DNA of 32,614 bases, from positions 1-32,614 of the forward strand of contig JAHQYM010000019.1 in NCBI GenBank assembly GCA_024421095.1, read 5' to 3'. Shown one piece after another: positions 13,447 to 32,614 of this stretch. The position numbers were made by a program, and so were the translations under genes. The stretch comes from Acidimicrobiia bacterium (GTDB lineage Bacteria > Actinomycetota > Acidimicrobiia > Acidimicrobiales > Aldehydirespiratoraceae). The notes beneath the pieces were generated by a model. The model saw only the letters and a list, made by a program, of their open reading frames with translations. It was not told the DNA's origin and searched no databases. Numbering within the stretch: the first letter of the stretch is position 1; every line of letters begins with the position of its first letter.

Positions 13447-14790
13447 CTAAGCAATGAGTGCCAAGATTTCTTGGCTGCGGCGCTGCATCTCCGCTTGGTT
13501 AGCAGCTTCAAGATTTAGACGCAGCAAAGGCTCAGTATTCGAAGGGCGCAGGTTGAACCACCAATCACCACACTCGACAGTGAGACCATCAAGCCAATCT
13601 TGTTGGCAACCCGCGAAAACGCCTGCCACCTTGTCGATCACCGCGTGGGGATCAGCAACCGCAGTGTTGATTTCAGACGAGGCACTATAACGATCTAATG
13701 CGGCAACGAGATCAGCAAGACCCGCTGAATGCCCGCTCAATGCTTCCAACACCAACAACGCGGCAATCATGGCGCTGTCGGCACCGAAATTGCGGCGGAA
13801 GTAGTAATGGCCCGAATGTTCACCACCAAAAACGGCTCCACTGTCAGCCATCGCCTGCTTCATAAAGGTGTGACCAACCCGCGAGCGAACCGCTTGGCCT
13901 TGACCTTCGGAGATCACCTCCCGCACCGCTTTAGAACAAATCACGTTATGCACGATCGCCGCACCCGGTTCAGCTTTCAGTATCGCACGCGCAACCAAAG
14001 CAGTCGTCAAAGAACCGGAAAGGCTGCGCCCATGCTCATCAATCAGAAACACCCGATCGGCATCACCATCAAAGGCCAAACCAATGTCGGCTTTAGTCGC
14101 CCGAATCCTTGCAGCGAGGTCTTGACAGTTTTCTGTTTGAAGCGGGTCGGCGGGATGGTTCGGGAAAGTGCCATCAAGCTCGGCGTACATATGATCAAGC
14201 ACAAACGGCAAATCGGCAAACACTGCGGGGACCACCAAACCGCCCATGCCATTAGCCGAATCGACCACAACACGCAGCGGTTCTAGCGCGCCGACATCAA
14301 CAAAGGACCGCACATGCGAAACGTATCCTTCAAGCAAGCGATACGGAGTACATTTGCCACGGCGCGGTGTGGGTTGCGGGCCAGCAATCGCCAAACGTTT
14401 GATTTCGGTCAGCCCCGTAGCGGTGCCAACTGGTGCCGCGCCAGACAAACACATCTTGATTCCGTTGTAGCCCGCAGGGTTGTGTGAAGCTGTGAAAACC
14501 GCGCCAGGCAAACCCAGAAACCCCGAACCGTAATAGAGCATCTCGGTGGCACACAACCCGACATCAAGCACATCTATGCCGTGCGCTAAAGCACCATCAG
14601 CGAACCCAGTCGCTAGTTCCTCACCGTCTGGGCGCATGTCACGGCCCACCAAAATCGCTTCAGCACCAGTAGCCCGCACGAAACGAGCGAAAGCGCCGCC
14701 GATAGCTTCAGCACCGCTGGCATCTAGCTGATCGGGGACTAAACCACGCACATCGTAGGCCTTAAATATCGCCTCAAAGTCTGTGGGCAC
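13447..14790 (-). CDS. manB: Phosphomannomutase/phosphoglucomutase
   Basis: This 447-residue alpha-D-phosphohexomutase converts mannose-6-phosphate to mannose-1-phosphate (and possibly the glucose pair). All four active-site loops are present: the phosphoserine loop TASHNPAGYNG with Ser102, the magnesium loop DGDADR at 241-246, the sugar-binding GGEHSGHYYFRR and the phosphate-binding RPSNTEPLLR with Ser417. The start KAYDVRGLVPDQL is typical. With manA two genes downstream it supplies the precursor of GDP-mannose for the glycosyltransferases in this neighbourhood. It is 17 bp downstream of ppk2. Confidence 0.96.
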   Translation of the reverse strand: MPTDFEAIFKAYDVRGLVPDQLDASGAEAIGGAFARFVRATGAEAILVGRDMRPDGEELATGFADGALAHGIDVLDVGLCATEMLYYGSGFLGLPGAVFTASHNPAGYNGIKMCLSGAAPVGTATGLTEIKRLAIAGPQPTPRRGKCTPYRLLEGYVSHVRSFVDVGALEPLRVVVDSANGMGGLVVPAVFADLPFVLDHMYAELDGTFPNHPADPLQTENCQDLAARIRATKADIGLAFDGDADRVFLIDEHGRSLSGSLTTALVARAILKAEPGAAIVHNVICSKAVREVISEGQGQAVRSRVGHTFMKQAMADSGAVFGGEHSGHYYFRRNFGADSAMIAALLVLEALSGHSAGLADLVAALDRYSASSEINTAVADPHAVIDKVAGVFAGCQQDWLDGLTVECGDWWFNLRPSNTEPLLRLNLEAANQAEMQRRSQEILALIA

Positions 14791-14807: not shown

Positions 14808-15656
14808 TCAGTAACGCTCAGGGACAAATGTTTGCTCAGAGATGGGTGGACGCACATAACCGATGGCTGACTGCTTTTGCGGCAAATGTACTTCCTCCCA
14901 AGGCACCGGTTCGTAGGGTATCTGCTCAAGCAGGTGCGCGATGCAGTTTAACCGGGCCTTCTTTTTGGAGTCGGCATTGACCACAAACCAAGGAGCCACC
15001 TTAATGTCGGTGTGCGCGAACAGAATATCTTTGGCTTTAGAAAAATCTACCCAGCGGGTACGACCCTGCAAATCAAGCGCCGATAATTTCCAACGCCTCA
15101 CTGGATCGTTGATACGGCTTTGAAAGCGGCGTTCTTGTTCACTGTCGCTAACCGAGAACCAGTACTTGATCAAAACAATTCCCGAGCGAACTAACATCCG
15201 CTCAAATTCGGGGCAGGAACGCAAAAACTCTTGGTATTCCTCTTCGCTGCAAAAACCCATTACCGGTTCGACAAGGCCACGATTATACCAACTGCGGTCG
15301 AAGAGCACCATCTCGCCAGCGGCAGGCAACTCAGCCACGTAACGCTGAAACCACCATTGGGTCTTTTCACGGTCGCTTGGCGTGCCCAACGCAACTACCC
15401 GCACAACTCTCGGGTTGAGACGTTCAGTAATGCGCTTGATCACACCGCCTTTGCCGGCTGCGTCACGCCCCTCAAAAATAACCACAACTTTGAGACCCTG
15501 ATGGCGTATCCAGCGCTGTAGACGCACCAGTTCTTGCTGTAAACGGGCAAGTTCGCGATTGTATTCCTTAGTTTTCACCTTGAACCGCCTTTTTGCGCCA
15601 TTTGCGCCAGATGTTGGCGTGGCGCTAGTGTGCGACCCCAACATAATAGCGACCAT
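14808..15656 (-). CDS. ppk2: Polyphosphate kinase 2
   Basis: This 282-residue one-domain PPK2 transfers phosphate between polyphosphate and nucleoside diphosphates, or the reverse. It has Walker A GRDAAGKGG at residues 63-71, the lid region with LNPRVVRVVALGTPSDREKTQWWFQRYV and Walker B FDRSWYNR (D120-R126), followed by the conserved EPVMGFC and RINDPVRRWKLSALDL segments. A single domain of this length fits class I PPK2. Two ATGs are possible (15656 and 15644). It lies in the manB operon, 33 bp after the acidic membrane protein gene; whether it supplies GTP for GDP-mannose formation is speculation from context. Confidence 0.94.
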   Translation of the reverse strand: MVAIMLGSHTSATPTSGANGAKRRFKVKTKEYNRELARLQQELVRLQRWIRHQGLKVVVIFEGRDAAGKGGVIKRITERLNPRVVRVVALGTPSDREKTQWWFQRYVAELPAAGEMVLFDRSWYNRGLVEPVMGFCSEEEYQEFLRSCPEFERMLVRSGIVLIKYWFSVSDSEQERRFQSRINDPVRRWKLSALDLQGRTRWVDFSKAKDILFAHTDIKVAPWFVVNADSKKKARLNCIAHLLEQIPYEPVPWEEVHLPQKQSAIGYVRPPISEQTFVPERY

Positions 15657-15689: not shown

Positions 15690-16352
15690 TCAAGTTGGTT
15701 CCCATTCGTCGGGTGTGTCTTCATCGTCTTCATCGTCCTCATCTTGCATTGGTTCATCGGGTAGGGTTCCGAATAATCCTCCACCGAGCGCATCGCCTAG
15801 CGCGTCGCCAAGTTCATTAAGGTCAAGCAAAAAGGGGAGCAATTCAGCTAAATCGCCCAAACTGCCGAGGTCGCCGAGATCAAGGTCGCCTAATCCTAAC
15901 GCTTCGCTCAAATCCAGTCCCCCGGGATCTAAATCGCCAGAATCCAGATCACTTGAATCCATGTCCCCCGACTCGATATCCCCGGAATCTGGATCGTCAA
16001 GACCGAGATCTGATGCCATGACCACCACCACGATCGGTCGGTTGGTGTCATTGCCGTGGCTACGATCGGAGCGTTCGGCGACTTCAGGAGCATCATTAGT
16101 CGCTTGGTCGTCGCCGAGTGCAGAAATCGCCCACCAAGCGCCAACCACGATCCCCGCACAAATCAACACTGTGCCGACAACCACGCTAGCGATCTGCATT
16201 GCACGCGCCGGCTTCAACGGTTCTTTGCTCGCGGCCACCGGCATTGTTGGCGAACTTACTGAATTGGCAACACTGGATTCACTCACGCTGGTCTCGCTGC
16301 TGCTGGCCTCAGCCGAGTTCTCCTTCGGCGGGTCTTGGTTTTCGTCATTCAT
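15690..16352 (-). CDS. Acidic one-helix membrane protein with a pentad-repeat tract
   Basis: I do not recognise this 220-residue protein. It has a Ser/Glu-rich cytoplasmic head (1-50), one membrane helix at about 53-79 (IASVVVGTVLICAGIVVGAWW), and an acidic outer part. Residues 120-145 run as near-perfect five-residue units (SGDIE, SGDMD, SSDLD, SGDLD, PGGLD), followed by GLGDLDLGDLG-type repeats and a final DEDDEDDED cluster. The pattern resembles pentapeptide repeats (D-L-x-x spacing) but is too short to be sure of that fold; binding of calcium is another possibility. The ATG overlaps the stop of the glycosyltransferase fusion by 8 bp (ATGAATGA), so translation is probably coupled. Confidence 0.78.
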   Translation of the reverse strand: MNDENQDPPKENSAEASSSETSVSESSVANSVSSPTMPVAASKEPLKPARAMQIASVVVGTVLICAGIVVGAWWAISALGDDQATNDAPEVAERSDRSHGNDTNRPIVVVVMASDLGLDDPDSGDIESGDMDSSDLDSGDLDPGGLDLSEALGLGDLDLGDLGSLGDLAELLPFLLDLNELGDALGDALGGGLFGTLPDEPMQDEDDEDDEDTPDEWEPT

Positions 16353-19300
16353 AGTTCGAGTCTACCCGAAACTTCACACTCGGCGCAAAACTATAATCAC
16401 CGCGTTTGGCTAGTTTGCGGATTTTGCAGATGTCTCGGGTGACCCTGATCCCGTCTCGAACGGCTTGCACGGTAGACGAATCGCTGTTAATCACGTTCAC
16501 GGGCACTTCGGAAATCGAATATCCATAGCGTTCCGCCAAGTGCAGTACCTCAATATCGAAAGCGAACCCGTTGATCTTGCCAACCGTCATCAAGGTTTTG
16601 GCCACATCGGCACGGAACGCTTTGCAACCGCATTGGGTGTCTTGATAGCGCCCAGTCAACACTTGACGCGCAAACAAGTTCACCACTCGGCTCCCCAAAC
16701 GCCGCACGTTAGACACGTCATTGCGCCCAGCCCTATGAGCTACGTAGCGATTACCGATCACCACATCACTCCCGCCCTCCACAGCGCGCAACAGCGGCAG
16801 CAACTGCTCTGGTGAGTAGGCGAGATCGGCATCAGTAAACGCCACCGTGTTCCCCCTACTTGCCAACACGCCTACTCGTACCGCCGCACCTTTGCCTTGA
16901 TTTTCACCCAACGTGACCACTCGAGACGCTCCAGCATCACGGGCCGCGTTCGCGGTTCGGTCGGTTGAGCCATCATCTACGATCACGATCTCAAGTTCTC
17001 CAGATTCATGAAGGTCAGCCAAAGCACGGCGAATCTCAGCAATCGTGGCGGCGATACGCGGCTCTTCACAATAGGCCGGGACGACCACCGACAAGCGACA
17101 ATCTGACCGATCGTTGGTGGCCGAGTCTGGGTTTGGGTCGGCGACCGGGTCGGTGGTTGAGTTGAACAGAAACTCAGGGGGCGGCTCAGCTTGTGTTTGG
17201 GTTTTGCGCGGCGCGGCGAAATCCCACCAAGGCGTGCCTTGCGAAGGCAAGCGAGCAAACTTGCGCACGCCCAGCAACAATATCAACAACAGCAACCCGG
17301 CTAGGGTCGCAAACCAGCCTATCCACTGCACAGAGGAGCGGGCGTATGTCAAGGTCACCTCAGACTCGGTCGGCACCACCGCCATCAAATTAGGAGACAC
17401 ACGATACGGGCCTTCGGCTCCGCGGGCTTTCCAGTTAGGGAAATAACTACTGCGCACCAGCACCGGCAGGCCCGTTTTTTCAACCGAGAAGCTGATCGTA
17501 TCGCGCCCCGTTGCGATATCGGTAACCTCAGTTGTGGCAACGCTTTGGCGTTCCAGCCAAGCGGGTAACGCAGCAGCCAGAGCACGTATCTCGGCCACAC
17601 GATCACCGCTCTCGACTGCTTCGGCAACCAACGGTTCTTGACGCGACAAATCAGCAAGCGACATGCGCGGCCACTCAGGCGGACCGTCCGCGGCAATCAA
17701 GGGTATCTCGCCACTAGCCTCCCAAGCGGCCACCGCCGGCACCAACCAATGGTCACCACCAGCATCTAAACCTTCAAGCACCACAGGCTGCTGCTCAATG
17801 CCGACAACAACATCGTGATCCTCGACCAAAAACACTACCCACGGCCCGCTGTTGGCTATCTCAACGAAACCGCTGTGGTCACGAGCTTGGCCTATCGCCG
17901 CTTCGGTGACAGCTAAGTAATAGCGCACCCCCAGCGTTTGCAGACCCGCTAGACCTTTGTCGACATTGAGTTGAGAATAAGGCAACTCTCGCTGTGCCCG
18001 AGAAGGCAACTCAGACAACTCCGATTGCAACAAAAAGTGATACGGCGTGGTCGCTGAAGCCTCAAAATAGAGCCCCTCCATAGAACCAATGCAGCCTTGC
18101 GTCCAATGCGGCAACAACATCGGTGCCATAGTCGTGCCGTAGGTACCCAGGCGTTCTGAGTTGTACTCCCAAAGCGACCGTCCACAACCATACTGCTCAC
18201 CCACCCGTTCCATCGTGGCAACCAAATCGTTGTACTCGGCAGTTCCAGATTTTTCTTCGTAGCCGGTGAAGTTGTAACGCAACCAACCAGGACCCGGGTT
18301 GATGCTTTCAGTGGCCCAAATCTTGCGCCCCGCAACCGATTCCACCCCAAAAACACTTGAGAAGCCATAAACAAAGTTGGTCTCGCCGTCTGCGCCAACC
18401 CTCTGAAAGGCAGTAGCAAAAGGCACCGACCTCAGCGGGAAAGCCAACGCAACAACGATCACAATCGCGAATGTCGCCGCCGGTAGCGTCATCCAAAGCG
18501 GACTCAGCGAACCCCGAGAAGCGCTATCGTCCTTCGCCAACGGGCGGAACCAGCGTCCCACGATCCCGGACAATTCCGCGAAAGCAATTCCCGCTAATAG
18601 ATAAACAGCTAGATAATAAAACGGCAAGATACGGACGTTCCACAAACGACTCTCTGGCAGCGCCACAAAAGCAACCGCAAACACCAAAGCCACAAGGCTC
18701 AAAACCAAACCGAGGCGGATACGGCGCACAACAGAAATCAAAGCCCCCAGCACCGCAAGCACCACAAACACCTGCAACGGTAATTCGTTCGCCAGAAACG
18801 ATTGATCTCCCAAGTTGTCGCCACGATGCCACAAAGCAGCCGCGTAACGCCGTTCTTTACCCCAACCCATGTCGTTGAGGTAACGAACGTTCCACACAAA
18901 CGGCAAAACCCAAAACGCCGCCAACAACGCTGCGAGCGAACCAACTACCCCAACCCATACCACTTCTCGTCGTCCCAGACGAATCAGCAACACCGCAGCC
19001 AACGCAACCAACGCAAAAAATGCCGCAAACAAATGCAACAGACCTGTCAACGCCAACAAGACCGCCGCAAGCGCGTGATCTCGGCCGGTGCGTTGCCCCC
19101 GCACCGCCAAACCAATGAACAGCACCGCTACCGTCAAACCGAGGCTGTAAGCGAACTCCCCCGCCATCGTCGACAACAAGTTCCCGCCGTAAATATTGAA
19201 AGAACGATCAAAAATAAACGGCAACGTCATCAACGCCATCAACGCCGCAGCCGGGTCATTCAATCGAGCTAAACGGCCCGCCGCAAAAGCCGCGCACGGG

Positions 19301-20091
19301 AGCGTGACAATCCCCGCAACGACAACCACCTTGATAGCCACCCCATATGGAACTGACACAACCAACAACGTGGCAACCGCTGCCGTTGTGGTGAGCGCCA
19401 CACGCCAACGTTGCAAAACCTTAAACCGTTGCTCAAGCACCTCTAAGCAGCACCACACCAACCTCGCTAGCGCCGCCGGCAACACCAACACAACCAACGC
19501 CAAATCAAGCGCAGCGTCATTGAAGGTAAACGGTTCTAGCGGTGACCAACCAAAAACGTCGGTGTGGAACACACGTCCGTCAGCAACCGCTCCAAAAACG
19601 GCCGCACCCAACCCAAAACCAAGAGTCACCGTCAACCGCGAAATCCAATCCAAACGAAACCTCTCCACAGCAAGGAAGGCCACCAGCGCTACCCCTAATG
19701 CAGCAAGCCAATCAATCGGTATGCCCAACCCCACGTTGACAATCACGATCAAAAGCGATGGGATCACCATGTAAAACGTGAAAGCTGGAAACCCCGCATA
19801 CCAATCAGGTGACCAACCAGTAAGGCGCAGGTTCGGTAACAGTGCATCACGCAAATACGCCGGCGACCAAACATGGGCCCCCAAGTCTCCACCAGTGGGC
19901 GTGGTGTCATAAAACCACAACCACGGCGACAAATTCCACACCACGAACAAGGTCGCACCGCCAACCAACGCAAAGTTAAAACCGCGCTGCACAACCAGAG
20001 AACGCTCCGCGCTACGCCACCAAGCCTGCAGAGAACTCCGCAGCGTCTTAGTCGGCGCCGTTGCTAGCTGTTGGTCAGGTTGCATCTGCAT
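16345..20091 (-). CDS. GT-C-like membrane protein fused to a GT2 dolichyl-phosphate-type glycosyltransferase
   Basis: This is a 1248-residue two-part protein. The N-terminal ~950 residues have many membrane helices; the first outer loop carries GGDLGAHVWSPAYLRD and WSPDWYAGFPAFTFYM, like GT-C or PTPS-related (PF10131) membrane proteins, and a large outer region lies between about residues 560 and 915. A last helix (WIGWFATLAGLLLLILLLGV) and a linker lead to a GT2 domain from about residue 999: RLSVVVPAYCEE, IVIVDDGSTDRT, GKGAAVRVG, FTDADLAYSPEQ, DTQCGCKAF and GFAFDIEVLHLA, the pattern of polyprenyl-phosphate mannose/glucose synthases. The fusion would make a lipid-linked sugar inside and use it outside; this is inferred. 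It is 84 bp downstream of the CPBP gene. Confidence 0.88.
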   Translation of the reverse strand: MQMQPDQQLATAPTKTLRSSLQAWWRSAERSLVVQRGFNFALVGGATLFVVWNLSPWLWFYDTTPTGGDLGAHVWSPAYLRDALLPNLRLTGWSPDWYAGFPAFTFYMVIPSLLIVIVNVGLGIPIDWLAALGVALVAFLAVERFRLDWISRLTVTLGFGLGAAVFGAVADGRVFHTDVFGWSPLEPFTFNDAALDLALVVLVLPAALARLVWCCLEVLEQRFKVLQRWRVALTTTAAVATLLVVSVPYGVAIKVVVVAGIVTLPCAAFAAGRLARLNDPAAALMALMTLPFIFDRSFNIYGGNLLSTMAGEFAYSLGLTVAVLFIGLAVRGQRTGRDHALAAVLLALTGLLHLFAAFFALVALAAVLLIRLGRREVVWVGVVGSLAALLAAFWVLPFVWNVRYLNDMGWGKERRYAAALWHRGDNLGDQSFLANELPLQVFVVLAVLGALISVVRRIRLGLVLSLVALVFAVAFVALPESRLWNVRILPFYYLAVYLLAGIAFAELSGIVGRWFRPLAKDDSASRGSLSPLWMTLPAATFAIVIVVALAFPLRSVPFATAFQRVGADGETNFVYGFSSVFGVESVAGRKIWATESINPGPGWLRYNFTGYEEKSGTAEYNDLVATMERVGEQYGCGRSLWEYNSERLGTYGTTMAPMLLPHWTQGCIGSMEGLYFEASATTPYHFLLQSELSELPSRAQRELPYSQLNVDKGLAGLQTLGVRYYLAVTEAAIGQARDHSGFVEIANSGPWVVFLVEDHDVVVGIEQQPVVLEGLDAGGDHWLVPAVAAWEASGEIPLIAADGPPEWPRMSLADLSRQEPLVAEAVESGDRVAEIRALAAALPAWLERQSVATTEVTDIATGRDTISFSVEKTGLPVLVRSSYFPNWKARGAEGPYRVSPNLMAVVPTESEVTLTYARSSVQWIGWFATLAGLLLLILLLGVRKFARLPSQGTPWWDFAAPRKTQTQAEPPPEFLFNSTTDPVADPNPDSATNDRSDCRLSVVVPAYCEEPRIAATIAEIRRALADLHESGELEIVIVDDGSTDRTANAARDAGASRVVTLGENQGKGAAVRVGVLASRGNTVAFTDADLAYSPEQLLPLLRAVEGGSDVVIGNRYVAHRAGRNDVSNVRRLGSRVVNLFARQVLTGRYQDTQCGCKAFRADVAKTLMTVGKINGFAFDIEVLHLAERYGYSISEVPVNVINSDSSTVQAVRDGIRVTRDICKIRKLAKRGDYSFAPSVKFRVDSNYE

Positions 20092-23745: not shown

Positions 23746-25223
23746 TGTTGGGACACGCCGCTCAGGTCGCGGCTCACCAACACCGGTGCCGTTGCCACCA
23801 CTTCCACAATCGGCGCGTCACTACCCAACTCTGCTGCGCTGAACCTGGCTCGCTCCTGTGGTGCTATGTTCACCGCAACAACTAGTCTCTTGCCTTGCTC
23901 GTCAATGACCGAAACTTGCGCATCAAGCGCCTCTGCCGCGGGATTGAAAATCGAAATCCCGTGGTCTGGGCTGCGCAACGGTGCCAACCACCTCGTGGTG
24001 CCCACATCCAAACCACTCGTTGCCGCCAAGGAAATGTTTTCCGAGCCAAACCCCAACTCGGGGTCGCAAGTCGACGGTGTCTCTTCGGGATCCGCGGCTG
24101 ACACTGCGTCCGTCGATTCGTGTAAGACGGCAACGCCCAGTCCAGTTATCGAACGCGCCGTAATGATGTAACTCCCTATACCCTCAAGCCTCTGCATGGC
24201 GTTCAAACAAACCTGACGTGCCTCACCCGGCGCAATGGTCAACTCAACCGGAACACGCTGCACAACTCCACTATCACCATCAACAATGAGCTCAAGGTCA
24301 ACCCCAGCGACCTCATCTGAAGACGGATTCAACACCGTCACCACATCAATACGTTCAGAGTTGTTCAAATCCAACAAATACCACAAAGGCGAAAGGGTCG
24401 AAACCGCTGGGGTAACCGACAACGCAGCAGGAAACTGTTCATCGCTCTCAAGCGGCAACCCGCGCGACTGAACCCGCGAAACCACAACCCGCCCAAATAC
24501 CACATTCACCGTGGCGCTAATCTGCTCGGCAACTGGCACTTCGCTCGCAACATCAAGGGCCAGAACCCGCCTCGCTGGAACGACTACCCCGTTGCGCGTA
24601 TCAACACCAACATCGGAAGCGAAGCGGATATTCAACACCGCGTCATGCGGAAACGGGTTGAGCACCAACAACACCATCTCCTCACCCTTCTCCGCTAGAC
24701 GCGTGGCACCCGAAGGAACCAACCACAAATCCGAGGTGCGCGTCTGGCACAACGCCCGGTCGGTAGTGCCCGAAGCGCCCAGATAAGTCTGCTCAACAAT
24801 CATGTCAGCGGAGTCCACCTCCACAACAGCACCCATATATGACGACTCGGGAACCAAATCAGCCAGACGCACCAAGGAACGCTCACCCGCCTCAACACGT
24901 ACTAGCGCCTCAGTTGGTATCACACCAAGCCCCTGACGGATACCTGTGACGAGGGCTTGAGACGCTTCTGCTGAAGCGTTGATGATCTCAATAGACACAT
25001 CAGCGATCCCACCGGGGGCAGAACCACCAGGGCAGAACCAAGTGTTCTGGTGAGGCCACGACTCAGCAAGTGAATGTCTAATCGGGGTATGCACCTCCGA
25101 GATGTCTCTGGAAATCTTGTTCCCAAACACGACACCGCCAATCGACACAGAGTTGTCAAGCAACAATGCGGTCGCAATTACCGCCGTGAACACCGCAGAC
25201 ACGCACAGGCGAATGAGCTTCAT
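23688..25223 (-). CDS. Secreted DUF5719 family protein
   Basis: From the ATG at 25223 this 511-residue protein has an N-terminal export signal or anchor (KLIRLCVSAVFTAVIATALLL) and then only extracytoplasmic beta-rich sequence. Features such as NTWFCPGG, LWLVPSGATRLAEKGEEMVLLVLNPFP and TRWLAPLRSPDHGISIFNPAAE fit the actinobacterial DUF5719 family as I recall it, repeated beta-sandwich-like segments whose function is unknown. Its ATG overlaps the stop of the upstream glycosyltransferase by 4 bp (ATGA), so the two are translationally coupled and probably work together outside the membrane. A longer frame to 25313 would overlap the glycosyltransferase further and is unlikely. Confidence 0.82.
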   Translation of the reverse strand: MKLIRLCVSAVFTAVIATALLLDNSVSIGGVVFGNKISRDISEVHTPIRHSLAESWPHQNTWFCPGGSAPGGIADVSIEIINASAEASQALVTGIRQGLGVIPTEALVRVEAGERSLVRLADLVPESSYMGAVVEVDSADMIVEQTYLGASGTTDRALCQTRTSDLWLVPSGATRLAEKGEEMVLLVLNPFPHDAVLNIRFASDVGVDTRNGVVVPARRVLALDVASEVPVAEQISATVNVVFGRVVVSRVQSRGLPLESDEQFPAALSVTPAVSTLSPLWYLLDLNNSERIDVVTVLNPSSDEVAGVDLELIVDGDSGVVQRVPVELTIAPGEARQVCLNAMQRLEGIGSYIITARSITGLGVAVLHESTDAVSAADPEETPSTCDPELGFGSENISLAATSGLDVGTTRWLAPLRSPDHGISIFNPAAEALDAQVSVIDEQGKRLVVAVNIAPQERARFSAAELGSDAPIVEVVATAPVLVSRDLSGVSQHQLLPAVVASAALSVGVEP

Positions 25224-28200
25224 CGTTGATGACCCACAACTGGGCGGATGACTAGCACCGCTAGCAACAAAACCAACGCCAACACCTGCCCCACGAGCAG
25301 CAAACGCCGCCACGGTTGCGTTGAGTACACTAAATCGCCTAGGCCCCCTGTCTGCGCTGAGAACGCCGTTGCGTAACCCAACACCGGGCGTGGAGTTACT
25401 CGCCTACCGTCAAGCTCGAATCTCCATAGGGGGTCAGCGCTTTGTGCCACCAAGACATCAGTCTCCGCGGGTATTTCTCCAGAAATCTTGCTGCCACGGC
25501 CGGCCATCACCCCGGCGCTACCCACAATCGGCGCTACCGCCAAATCCGAGATTTCGGTGATTGCCTGATCAAAGCCCGGTGTCGCGGCGGCGCGAACTGC
25601 CGTCCAAGCAGTGTTGACATACACTTCTACCGCGCTGTTAATCCCCTCAAGGTGCCTCAAATCAAGCTGCGCAGCAAAAGCGTCTTTGATTCCCTCGTCA
25701 ATCGCGGTGGTTGCATCGGGTTCGCTGAACGGTGCGGGAGCTAGCCGGTCGAGCAACACCACATAGCGAATCCCCAATCCACCGAGTTGTCGCCCTACAC
25801 GTATCGTGGTGCCATCCAAAGCCCGTAGAAGTGTTTCTTGCACTAACAATGCCGCCCCGGGATCAACCGCCGGTTTCGCATCGGCGAGTTTCGGGGGGCC
25901 ATCAAGCGACGCTAACCAAGCGACGTCGGCGACTAAATGACGCCCGTCACCCAACAGTGTTTCGGAGTTGCCAATCCACAACACCCGGTAACTTCCATCC
26001 TCACGAGGATTGGCGAAAGGCAACACGTCTGCATAATCACTCCTAGGCATCTCCCAACGACCCGTTTCTGCCAACGCCAGCCCCGGCAGAGCTCCGATCA
26101 GTGCCGCCAACACCGCTAACGGCATGAGCGCTTGACGCCAACCGAAGGAGACCGCCGCTAAATCATGTTCAAAAGCTACAACCGCTAAACCACAAGTCAA
26201 TGCCACCGCAGCAGCCGCAGGAGCCAAAATGACACCGTTATCAGGCATCCCAAAAGGCAACCAACCCAACGCCACGACCCAAGCCAAACCCCAACTAACC
26301 AATGCCACAGACCAGCCACGCACCGCCATCGCGAAACGCCACGACCGTCCGATTGCCAAAGGAACCGCCATCAACAAAGCGAAAGCCCAAACAAAATGTC
26401 CCGGTTCCGCTGGCCCAACATCAAAACGAAAAATGTCAACCAACCCGAGCGCCGAAGCTGACCCGTCACGCCCACCCACAAACGGTGCCAAGTTTGCTTT
26501 AGTGCCCGCTACCAACAAGTCCACCACGAAAGGCAACACCAACAGTAATGCCACCGGCAATGCCATCAACACCGAACTCAACAGGCGCAAAGTGCCGTTG
26601 AAGCTAAACGTGAGCAACCCCGCGAGCAACAACCCGGCAAGCATCGGCACCACAATCAACGCCGTAGACACGTCAAAGGCGGCTGCCGCGCCCAACGCCA
26701 CGCCTATACCGACACCAGCACTAACCTGGCGAAACCAAGATTTCTTCACCCGCCAAGGTGCGGCCGCGCCCTGTGCCTTTAGCAACCCGCCTAGCAGCCA
26801 CGGTGCCAACGCATACGCGTAAATTCCGCTGATGCTAGCGCTCGCAATGACTGCCCAAGGCAAAGGCAGCATGGCATACACAAACACCGAACCAAGCTGA
26901 GCACGCCTCGAAGCCGTGGCGCGCAACATCCGCCAAGCCCCCAATAAACCAACGGCAACCGGTGCCAAAACCCACAATGTTCGCACCAAACCCAACGCTC
27001 CACCTGAAACAACCGCCAAAAAACCCAACAATCCCGCTGCGCTAGCAGCAGAACCAGTGCTACCCAAGTCACGTTCACGCCAACCGCTCCACCAATCACC
27101 AAGCATCTCCGAACCCGAATCGGCAAAAGGGAGATAGTCACCCACAACAGGTACACCACCACTAATCAATGACCGCGAACCAAACACCACAAACAACGCC
27201 AACAACCCCCAAACCACTGCTGCAATGCGAACCGTGCCGGTTTGTATCTTGGCAGTTAGTTCGTGCCTCGCCACAAACCCAGCATCGGCACCACCTTGAC
27301 CTCGCATCGTGGCCCCAAGCCGCACGCTTCGGCGATGTTGCTGTGCGCGCACATCTCGATAGCGAACCCTACGCAGAGCCCTCAGCGCGGTTCTACGGCT
27401 GCGAATCTCATCTAGGTGCCTGAGGTTCCAAGTCCAAGCCGCCCAAATATTGCGAAACTGGGCAAACTGGCGCTTTGCCAACGCCGCAAAGGATTCACCG
27501 ACAGAAAAAAGCAGCGCAAGGGGCAACAAAAAACCCAACGACGGATAGCTAGAGGTGACCATTACTGTGCGCAGTTGATGACGAGCACGGAGGCGCTCCA
27601 CAACCGCGCTGTCGGCTTTTGTGCGATCTGCTAGTGCTTCGCGATGACGAACCCTCGCATCTGGCACGGCCATCACCCTCGCACCCGCAAGTTGCGCCCT
27701 AAAACACAGATCAACATCTTCGCCGTGGAACGGCATCTCTGGATCAAAACCCTCTAACCGCCGAAACAAGTCGGAGCGAATCAAGACGGCCGCGGAAGGC
27801 ACTGCGAACACATCCACAACACCGTCATATTGTTCTTGGTCTATCTCTTTTGGTTCTACAACATCGCTAGCGGCGGCTAAACGGTCGACAACGTATGCCA
27901 CATGTTGGAGGCGGTCGGGGTTATCCCAGTAGAGGAGCTTTGGCCCCACAATACCGGCGTTGGAGCGCAGAGATTCAAGCACCAACAGGCGGACCGCATC
28001 GGTCTCTAGGGCAACGTCATCGTGACAAATCAGCAGGAACAGCGGATCAAGAGCGGTGTCCAAAATTGCGTTGGCGGCACCCGAAAAGCCGTTTGTGTCC
28101 GAAGCATCCAAAACCGATGCACGGGGCAACCGAGCTTGCACTCGGGTAGCCAAACTGGGATCACCCGCGGCATCCACCACTAGCGTTTCAAGGCGCGGAT

Positions 28201-28360
28201 AGTCTTGATTTGCAAAACTAGCTAAGGTTTCGTCGAACCAATTGCCGGGGGTATGAGCAACGATCACCGCCAAAACCGAAGGGGTGGTGTCTCGACTGTT
28301 TAAAGTCGGGTTCTCCAAACCAGCATTGAGTTGTGTTTGTTGTGCGTTGCCATGCCCCAC
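25220..28360 (-). CDS. GT2 glycosyltransferase with large C-terminal membrane domain
   Basis: This 1046-residue protein starts with a GT2 domain (about 28-290): LAVIVAHTPGNWFDETL, TNGFSGAANAIL, the metal-binding CHDDVAL (D114-D115), VGPKLLYWD and the acceptor/base motif FHGEDVDLCFRAQLAG. This pattern resembles rhamnosyl- and galactofuranosyl-type transferases of envelope polymers. A basic segment (about 315-375) leads into at least ten membrane helices with short outer loops (for example GGVPVVGDYLPFADSGSEML) and a final helix near the end. The start is a GTG at 28360, with homology beginning by about residue 28, so a later start is possible. It is coupled to the DUF5719 gene and diverges from the rhodanese gene (65 bp apart). 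Confidence 0.9.
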   Translation of the reverse strand: MGHGNAQQTQLNAGLENPTLNSRDTTPSVLAVIVAHTPGNWFDETLASFANQDYPRLETLVVDAAGDPSLATRVQARLPRASVLDASDTNGFSGAANAILDTALDPLFLLICHDDVALETDAVRLLVLESLRSNAGIVGPKLLYWDNPDRLQHVAYVVDRLAAASDVVEPKEIDQEQYDGVVDVFAVPSAAVLIRSDLFRRLEGFDPEMPFHGEDVDLCFRAQLAGARVMAVPDARVRHREALADRTKADSAVVERLRARHQLRTVMVTSSYPSLGFLLPLALLFSVGESFAALAKRQFAQFRNIWAAWTWNLRHLDEIRSRRTALRALRRVRYRDVRAQQHRRSVRLGATMRGQGGADAGFVARHELTAKIQTGTVRIAAVVWGLLALFVVFGSRSLISGGVPVVGDYLPFADSGSEMLGDWWSGWRERDLGSTGSAASAAGLLGFLAVVSGGALGLVRTLWVLAPVAVGLLGAWRMLRATASRRAQLGSVFVYAMLPLPWAVIASASISGIYAYALAPWLLGGLLKAQGAAAPWRVKKSWFRQVSAGVGIGVALGAAAAFDVSTALIVVPMLAGLLLAGLLTFSFNGTLRLLSSVLMALPVALLLVLPFVVDLLVAGTKANLAPFVGGRDGSASALGLVDIFRFDVGPAEPGHFVWAFALLMAVPLAIGRSWRFAMAVRGWSVALVSWGLAWVVALGWLPFGMPDNGVILAPAAAAVALTCGLAVVAFEHDLAAVSFGWRQALMPLAVLAALIGALPGLALAETGRWEMPRSDYADVLPFANPREDGSYRVLWIGNSETLLGDGRHLVADVAWLASLDGPPKLADAKPAVDPGAALLVQETLLRALDGTTIRVGRQLGGLGIRYVVLLDRLAPAPFSEPDATTAIDEGIKDAFAAQLDLRHLEGINSAVEVYVNTAWTAVRAAATPGFDQAITEISDLAVAPIVGSAGVMAGRGSKISGEIPAETDVLVAQSADPLWRFELDGRRVTPRPVLGYATAFSAQTGGLGDLVYSTQPWRRLLLVGQVLALVLLLAVLVIRPVVGHQR

Positions 28361-31087: not shown

Positions 31088-32614
31088 CTAGTTTCTTGGT
31101 TGTGAATGGGTTGGTAGGTCTAATGCTCTTACCAAAAAGCTTGCCATTTGCGCACGGGTGATGGAGTCGTTAGGGCAGTAGCGCAACGGATCGCCACTAC
31201 AGCCGACTGTTATACCCGCTGCGTAGATTGCGTCGATGTTGGCAGCGTGGGTGCTTGCGGCATCAACATCGTTGAACCCCGCCGGTTGCGCTTCCGCGAG
31301 TTCGAGCGCACGCACTAGGAACGTTGCCATCTCGGCACGCGTGACGAGATCGTTGGGGCAGTAGCGCAGTGGGTCGCTGTTACAGCCGACCGTTATGCCT
31401 GCCGCGTAGAGCGCGTCGATGTTGGCGGCGTGGGTGCTTGCGGCATCAACATCGTTGAACCCCGCCGGTTGCGCGGGTTCCAGATCGAGCGCACGCACCA
31501 GGAACGTTGCCATCTCAGCGCGGGTGAGGGGATCGTTGGGGCAGTACTGCAACGGATCGCTACTACAGCCTTCGGTTATACCCGCTGCGTAGATTGCGTC
31601 GATGTTGGCAGCGTGGGTGCTTGCGGCGTCAACATCGTTGAACCCCGCGGGTTGCACAACCCCGTCGCCGGAGCCAGCGTCAGTGTCGTCGGTGCCGACA
31701 TCGGTCTCGTCCGTGCCGGTGAAGTCAACCCCGCCGTCGGTGCCGGTGTCATCGGTGTCGGTGTCATCAGTGCCGGTGTCATCAGTGCCGGTGTCGGTGT
31801 CATCAGTGCCGTCCGTCTCTTCGGTGTCGGTGTCGGGGGGCACAGTAGTGGTTGGGGGCACAGTTGGAGTCGGCGTGAAAATTGGGTTTGTGGGGGTTGG
31901 TTGGACGTTGATAGAGGGGGTTATGGAGACGGAGGCGTTTCGGTATGTGGGATGGCGCAGCAGCTGGTCGGTGCCGTCGGTGATGCGCAGGTCGATCGTT
32001 TTGCGGTCGGTGTCGGCGTTGTCGGTTATCCTCACAGCCACGCGGGCGAACCGACTGCCAGCGGGAATGGTCACGGTCTTTTCGGTGATACGGAAATCGC
32101 CGGGGTTATCTTCGTTCTGCCATTCGACTGCGGTGCTTGAGCCGAGCGCTTCAACGGTAATGTCAAGATCAGATTCCACAGGCCGGTTCGTCGCGATCGG
32201 TAGGAATACGATGCTGCCGCGAACCCCCGAGGTAGAGTACCCGAAAGCTTGAGGGTAGATTTTCGAACCACCAGTCAGAAGCAGACTGTTAGGCTCGATT
32301 ATCGAACCGATCAGGACCAGGTCGTTCCCCGAGTAGCGGGCCACAACAGAATCAGTGAAACGCGTCACAGTAGTCGCAAAGGAATCGGGAATTGGGAATG
32401 CGTCATCACCAAGGTTCGGGAGTGTCAGCGACCACGCATTGGTTTGCGCTGCTCCGGCGACCACGATATTGCCGTCGGGTTGCAACACCATCCCAACCCT
32501 GCGGAAATCGGGTCTCGGGTTACCCGCCGTTGCGGGCACGAATGCAGTGGTCACGAGAGTGCCGTCGAATTGCTCCATAAGCCCAGCCCCGGAAAAATCG
32601 GGATCGGTTATGTC
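31088..32614 (-). CDS. C-terminal part of a large SLH-anchored surface protein (5' end outside window)
   Basis: The frame is open to the right edge, with DPDFSGAGL before the first in-window Met, so the gene continues upstream. In order it has a delta-60-type beta-propeller segment (DPDFSGAG, MVLQPDGNIVVAGA, TRFTDSVVARY; TIGR02608-like), a Calx-beta-like domain (ITVEALGSSTAVEWQNE to VAVRITDNADTDRKTIDL), a Pro/Thr stretch, an Asp/Thr/Gly linker of about 60 residues, and three SLH repeats of 61 residues ending the protein. Each SLH repeat has a Cys pair (GCxxDPLxYCPN) before TRAxMAxFLVRAL. SLH domains hold proteins to the wall or its secondary polymers, so this is an exported surface protein; its ligand is unknown. 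A signal peptide is expected upstream but not visible. Confidence 0.9.
   Translation of the reverse strand, partial: DITDPDFSGAGLMEQFDGTLVTTAFVPATAGNPRPDFRRVGMVLQPDGNIVVAGAAQTNAWSLTLPNLGDDAFPIPDSFATTVTRFTDSVVARYSGNDLVLIGSIIEPNSLLLTGGSKIYPQAFGYSTSGVRGSIVFLPIATNRPVESDLDITVEALGSSTAVEWQNEDNPGDFRITEKTVTIPAGSRFARVAVRITDNADTDRKTIDLRITDGTDQLLRHPTYRNASVSITPSINVQPTPTNPIFTPTPTVPPTTTVPPDTDTEETDGTDDTDTGTDDTGTDDTDTDDTGTDGGVDFTGTDETDVGTDDTDAGSGDGVVQPAGFNDVDAASTHAANIDAIYAAGITEGCSSDPLQYCPNDPLTRAEMATFLVRALDLEPAQPAGFNDVDAASTHAANIDALYAAGITVGCNSDPLRYCPNDLVTRAEMATFLVRALELAEAQPAGFNDVDAASTHAANIDAIYAAGITVGCSGDPLRYCPNDSITRAQMASFLVRALDLPTHSQPRN
31106..31654 (-). repeat. Three 183-bp tandem repeats encoding SLH domains
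   Basis: Units run 31654-31472, 31471-31289 and 31288-31106 on the minus strand, with an exact 183-bp period checked at the shared GTTGAACCCCG (plus strand) landmarks. They begin QPAGFNDVDAASTHAANIDA and are nearly identical in protein, with differences clustered around GCSSDP/GCNSDP/GCSGDP and the ends of the units. Recent duplication or gene conversion is the simplest reading. Confidence 0.92.
31655..31850 (-). repeat. Low-complexity Asp/Thr/Gly linker repeats
   Basis: The tract encodes runs such as DDTGTDDTDTDDTGTD through short reiterated units (plus strand GTCATCAGTGCCGGTGTC and variants). It is an acidic flexible spacer between the Calx-beta-like domain and the SLH anchor, and plus-strand frames across it are shadows. 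Confidence 0.8.

Follow-up and report, generated by a model that had tools for sequence, protein, structure and literature searches.

Is a small acidic membrane protein the partner of the glycosyltransferase whose gene it overlaps, and do the five-residue repeats in its tail have a role of their own? The question arises at positions 15690 to 16352 of a 32,614-nucleotide stretch of Acidimicrobiia DNA (contig JAHQYM010000019.1, hereafter the window). A first-pass annotation made from the letters alone had described an acidic pentad-repeat membrane protein coupled to a glycosyltransferase, and we compared the locus with related genomes.

The gene and its protein

The gene runs on the minus strand from an ATG at 16352 to a stop at 15690, and its coordinates are exactly those first annotated. 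We took the minus frame as coding because homologs conserve it; a 243-aa plus-strand ORF covering the same bases has no such homolog support. From N- to C-terminus, the 220-aa protein comprises an acidic Ser/Glu-rich N-terminus (14 of the 50 N-terminal residues are Ser or Thr by composition count), one membrane helix, an acidic linker, a short hydrophobic stretch, the pentads, a GDL/Leu-rich stretch, and an acidic end, with a tail rich in Asp. Its parts are as follows, with the evidence for each in brackets.

15690–16352, minus strand: gene of study, encoding a single-pass membrane protein of 220 aa whose acidic tail bears repeats (ORF and homologs)
16116–16211, minus strand: predicted transmembrane helix, residues 48-79, with K/R before and D after, N-in/C-out by the positive-inside rule (hydropathy, AF2)
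16017–16037, minus strand: PIVVVVM, short hydrophobic stretch, residues 106-112 (sequence)
15915–15989, minus strand: pentad tract DSGDI ESGDM DSSDL DSGDL DPGGL, residues 122-146, present only in this genome among those examined (sequence, homolog comparison)
15768–15914, minus strand: GDL/Leu-rich stretch, residues 147-195, in which AF2 places a short helix of low confidence at 172-190 (sequence, AF2)
15699–15743, minus strand: acidic end DEDDEDDEDTPDEWE, residues 204-218 (sequence)

Sequence, hydropathy, and the AF2 helix all bear out the original description of a membrane protein whose tail is acidic and carries repeats. By eye, PIVVVVM resembles GPIVVLVV in same-genus homologs and VTVLVC in sister-genus homologs. 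Searches of Pfam, NCBIfam, PHROGs, and PDB with the protein returned no family match, in agreement with the earlier remark that no named family has this layout. A scan of viral contigs for relatives gave none among 89 pattern matches, and literature searches found no paper on the protein among the matches listed. Elsewhere in the window, 31088-32578 encodes a second acidic repeat-bearing, probably surface, protein with a TDD/TGTDD repeat followed by three repeats that we take from their motif to be SLH-like, and 310-1602 encodes what is by eye a probable secreted nuclease-like protein with a Thr-rich linker.

A family of two sister genera

Homologs occur in 5 of the 6 genomes of the window's genus and in 14 of the 16 genomes of its sister genus, giving 19 members. 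A single-sequence search of 51 family genomes at E ≤ 0.01 matched 18 genomes: the window's own, 4 of the 5 others of its genus, 11 of the 16 of the sister genus, and two weak matches that were dropped. G022 and G032 (E 0.007 and 0.005) were dropped from the family for want of a fitting open frame or for an internal stop. Three members (G013, G010, and G001) were added through a profile search and a reading of the shared locus, with the membership of G001 resting on position, start, helix, and promoter without a BLAST match. The profile-profile match between the two genera had an E-value of 1.9e-15, compared with 8e-5 for the best of 10 local-shuffle controls and 2e-4 for a reversed control. 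Profile A1 yielded nine matches over 298 genomes of the order, of which seven fell in the two genera and two were judged to be chance. Profile matches in G092 and G318 were dropped because they proved on inspection to be unrelated reading frames, and a match of 30 residues in G217 (E 2.5e-4) was left out of the family. The two sister-genus genomes with no member (G008 and G012) also gave no detected match for the neighboring gene, so the absence there may be an assembly gap.

On these comparisons, the protein appears to define an unnamed, lineage-restricted family, known to date from Acidimicrobiaceae-type MAGs of two sister genera, several of them possibly from sponges. A profile could be built for it. 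Identity within two close pairs was 59% and 53%, compared with 88% and 87% for the glycosyltransferase, and dN/dS was about 0.40 and 0.30 compared with 0.17 and 0.25. These values indicate that the protein evolves much faster than its neighbors yet under constraint.

Gene neighborhood and the glycosyltransferase

The following features adjoin the gene in the window.

16345–20091, minus strand: upstream fusion of a GT-C-like membrane protein with a GT2 domain that resembles polyprenyl-phosphate sugar synthases (domain searches)
16345–16352, minus strand: ATGAATGA overlap of the glycosyltransferase stop with the start of the gene of study (sequence)
14808–15656, minus strand: downstream PPK2 polyphosphate kinase (domain searches)
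13447–14790, minus strand: phosphomannomutase/phosphoglucomutase, directly after the glycosyltransferase in other genera (domain search, locus comparison)

The order CAAX protease, glycosyltransferase, phosphomannomutase is common across the bacterial family. In the window's genus, the 220-aa gene and PPK2 lie between the last two; in one genome of that genus (G049) the glycosyltransferase is present, the 220-aa gene is absent, and PPK2 stands alone. The gap between glycosyltransferase and PPK2 in that genome (L052:4380-4550) holds, by eye, two near-identical copies of about 65 nt. Outside the window's genus, 3-156 nt separate the GT2 domain from phosphomannomutase in 26 of 26 measured loci (L074 and L076 were left out of this measurement), which leaves no room for the gene. 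The sister-genus homolog is found downstream of ATP synthase, away from the glycosyltransferase, flanked on one side by a gene whose DnaJ match is weak and sub-threshold and on the other by an uncharacterised gene. Of 12 loci read outside the sister genus, 11 have these two flanking genes close together on the same strand without a member in between, and the twelfth (G017) is rearranged. Homologs do not, then, always follow the glycosyltransferase fusion. The GT-C-like and GT2 domains form one gene in the window's genus and in L063 and L064 and are separate in most other family loci; fusion in some loci suggests that donor-lipid synthesis is paired with transfer. Another large protein whose GT2 domain is N-terminal is encoded at 25220-28360.

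The 8-nt overlap ATGAATGA with the upstream fusion, which ends at 16345, was correctly identified by the first-pass annotation. It invites the view that the protein is an accessory subunit of the fused enzyme that holds the acceptor or donor lipid in place or presents it, with translation coupled through the overlap. The gene lies directly downstream on the same strand in 5 of the 6 same-genus genomes, with stop-codon overlap in 2 of 5 loci; both products are membrane proteins; and the predicted tail is on the outer face, where GT-C enzymes act. Nevertheless, we consider a subunit role unlikely. The glycosyltransferase does without the gene in G049 and in other genera, the sister-genus gene occupies another locus, and even within the window's genus the distance varies from overlaps of 8 and 11 nt to gaps of about 9, 40, and 278 nt. 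The sister-genus locus likewise speaks against functional coupling as originally proposed.

A probable promoter of its own

16359–16364, minus strand: TAGACT, predicted -10 box lying within the last part of the glycosyltransferase gene, 6 nt from the start codon of the gene of study (homolog conservation)

A TANNNT box is located 6-8 nt before the start codon in all 19 homologs, at both locations, and none has a Shine-Dalgarno-like site before the start; in each, the box is placed so that transcription would begin at or near the start codon. In G016 the start is the second of two nearby ATGs, since the box is out of place at the first. As background, eight loci contain 2474 ATG triplets, of which 48 show the arrangement (at 5-9 nt), and shuffling the last 20 nt produces it 5% of the time, with the proviso that the 19 promoter sequences are related rather than 19 independent events. 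The box stays while flanking sequence and neighbors differ. Leaderless genes of Actinobacteria are described in two studies (PMC3160421, PMC3898074) as lacking a Shine-Dalgarno sequence and having TANNNT about 12 bp ahead of the start codon. The 220-aa family shares this placement of TANNNT and lack of a Shine-Dalgarno site, as predicted from conservation.

We conclude that, at both locations, a leaderless promoter of its own probably drives the gene, in which case expression need not depend on ATGAATGA. Given a leaderless-type promoter and an unconserved overlap, the idea that the two proteins are made together is therefore not required, although read-through or coupling from the glycosyltransferase may still occur in the window's genus, where the gene, when present, always follows it. 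A tight stop-start overlap can mislead in this way, giving the appearance of a single unit when the downstream family has a probable promoter of its own and another site in a sister genus.

The same features permit a bolder account, namely a surface gene that relocates in the genomes of marine, possibly sponge-associated Acidimicrobiaceae, carries its own leaderless promoter to different sites and undergoes repeat growth and replacement in an exposed tail, like host-facing variable proteins. We regard this as quite unlikely.

Membrane topology and predicted structure

Kyte-Doolittle hydropathy of the 220-aa protein peaks at 2.51 at residue 54, and its AF2 model (mean pLDDT 51.9) contains a confident helix at 48-79 and little else. 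All 19 members have one dominant membrane segment with more K+R before it than after and a net charge of -3 to -9 after it, which by hydropathy and charge is a type II single-pass arrangement with the tail after the helix. In one homolog (G046), windows of transmembrane-like hydrophobicity C-terminal of the helix make a second membrane pass possible. L63, A66, W74, D81, and R94 are kept across both genera in or near the helix, which may thus have a partner rather than being a mere anchor.

The AF2 model of a sister-genus member has a mean pLDDT of 40.5 and one longer helix at 122-156, and Arg is abundant alongside Asp/Glu in the sister-genus tail. By composition and model, therefore, that tail does not appear to be simply polyanionic or unfolded throughout. 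With 5-7 sequences behind the models, low AF2 confidence argues only weakly for real disorder, and both the topology and any disorder in the cell are predictions.

Topology also bears on whether the protein is a substrate of the glycosyltransferase, that is, a surface glycoprotein glycosylated at Ser/Thr or Asn. Protein O-mannosylation systems have a layout like that of the GT-C-like protein fused to a polyprenyl-phosphate-sugar-synthase-like GT2 domain, and this resemblance, together with one NxT sequon at residue 101, lends the proposal some appeal. We find it very unlikely, as sequons occur in only 3 of 19 members and at unrelated places, most genera have the glycosyltransferase without the gene, and the Ser/Thr-rich part is on the predicted cytoplasmic side.

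The pentad tract

The description of near-perfect five-residue units followed by GDL repeats and an acidic end withstood counting and shuffling. The pattern [SP][GS][DG][ILM][DE] matches five times in the protein, with 4-5 SGD[ILM][DE]-type units. Period-5 identity over residues 111-165, a region picked because it looked repetitive, gave 20 matches where shuffled sequences averaged 8.35, and 0 of 5000 shuffles reached 20. Among the first four pentads, codon positions 1, 2, and 3 were identical in 22, 30, and 8 of 30 comparisons. With all second positions identical and third positions drifted, the repeat is old at the DNA level and kept at the protein level. Recent DNA slippage as its source was ruled out by these identities and by TRF, which found no 15-bp array in the pentad DNA.

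A special role for the pentads fares poorly in the wider comparison. The pattern was absent from all 18 other homologs, none of which is a very close relative (the closest genome compared has at most about 66% glycosyltransferase identity to the window), and residues 110-200, used as a query, had no match in the four other genomes sampled from the genus or in three from the sister genus. Several homologs instead have their own unrelated repeats, with periods from 5 to 22 (period 22 in G047, 14 in G015, 11 in G016, 6 in G010, and a PVEDA-type pentad N-terminal of the helix in G004 and G006). In the G010 homolog (L149:1876-3441), many short DS-x-EQ-type repeats lie in the N-terminal part, on the membrane side opposite to the window's pentads. 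Repeats that differ by lineage, together with fast yet constrained evolution, suggest that charge and length count for more than sequence.

AF2 assigned the pentads pLDDT values of 43-46 with neither coil nor strand in this low-confidence model, contrary to the suggestion of a short pentapeptide-type coil. The pentapeptide consensus has a D-L core, as which GD[ILM][DE]S can be read, and the tail is D-rich. Even so, a short pentapeptide-repeat beta-helix or calcium-binding repeat deserves hardly any credence, given 4-5 units against the at least eight contiguous pentapeptides described for the family (PMC8145042), no PF00805 match, no strands in the AF2 model, and no pentads in any homolog.

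A proposed tethered acidic tail

The explanation we favor is that of a fast-evolving, type II, disordered, polyanionic envelope protein acting as a membrane-tethered brush or spacer. Taken as a whole, we judge this statement about evenly balanced, with its structural description much safer than the brush function. The short acidic N-terminus would stay in the cytoplasm and one helix would anchor the protein, leaving a largely unfolded, strongly acidic tail, with a short hydrophobic stretch and a Leu-rich segment, outside the membrane. At the cell surface, this tail may act as a polyanionic brush or spacer that binds water and cations and provides spacing by steric or electrostatic means. What would matter is the length and charge of the protein, not its exact sequence; hence each lineage could fill in different low-complexity repeats, the pentads being this genome's version. 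The gene would be a transcription unit by itself, with a leaderless promoter, and this may explain how it could settle at two different sites. A pure brush would hardly be expected to contain the hydrophobic stretch or the Leu-rich segment, and both count against one. If the tail is exposed as proposed, the protein becomes a candidate for surface contact with hosts or particles in an uncultured group of bacteria.

Comparison with known systems

Two kinds of known protein invite comparison. The window's pentads share with PF00805 proteins a five-residue period and D-[ILM] at core positions, but the tract has too few units (4-5), no predicted coil, and no conservation among homologs. A search of the 220-aa protein at E up to 0.1 gave no PF00805 profile match, only PF01578 below its cut-off. 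Acidic low-complexity surface proteins, of the SD-repeat type and similar, are membrane- or wall-tethered and Asp/Ser-rich, with a disordered tail of variable length. The 220-aa protein differs from these in that no sequence homology was found, it has no wall-anchor domain, and its anchor is an N-terminal helix; it resembles them in being tethered and Asp/Ser-rich, with a predicted disordered tail of variable length.
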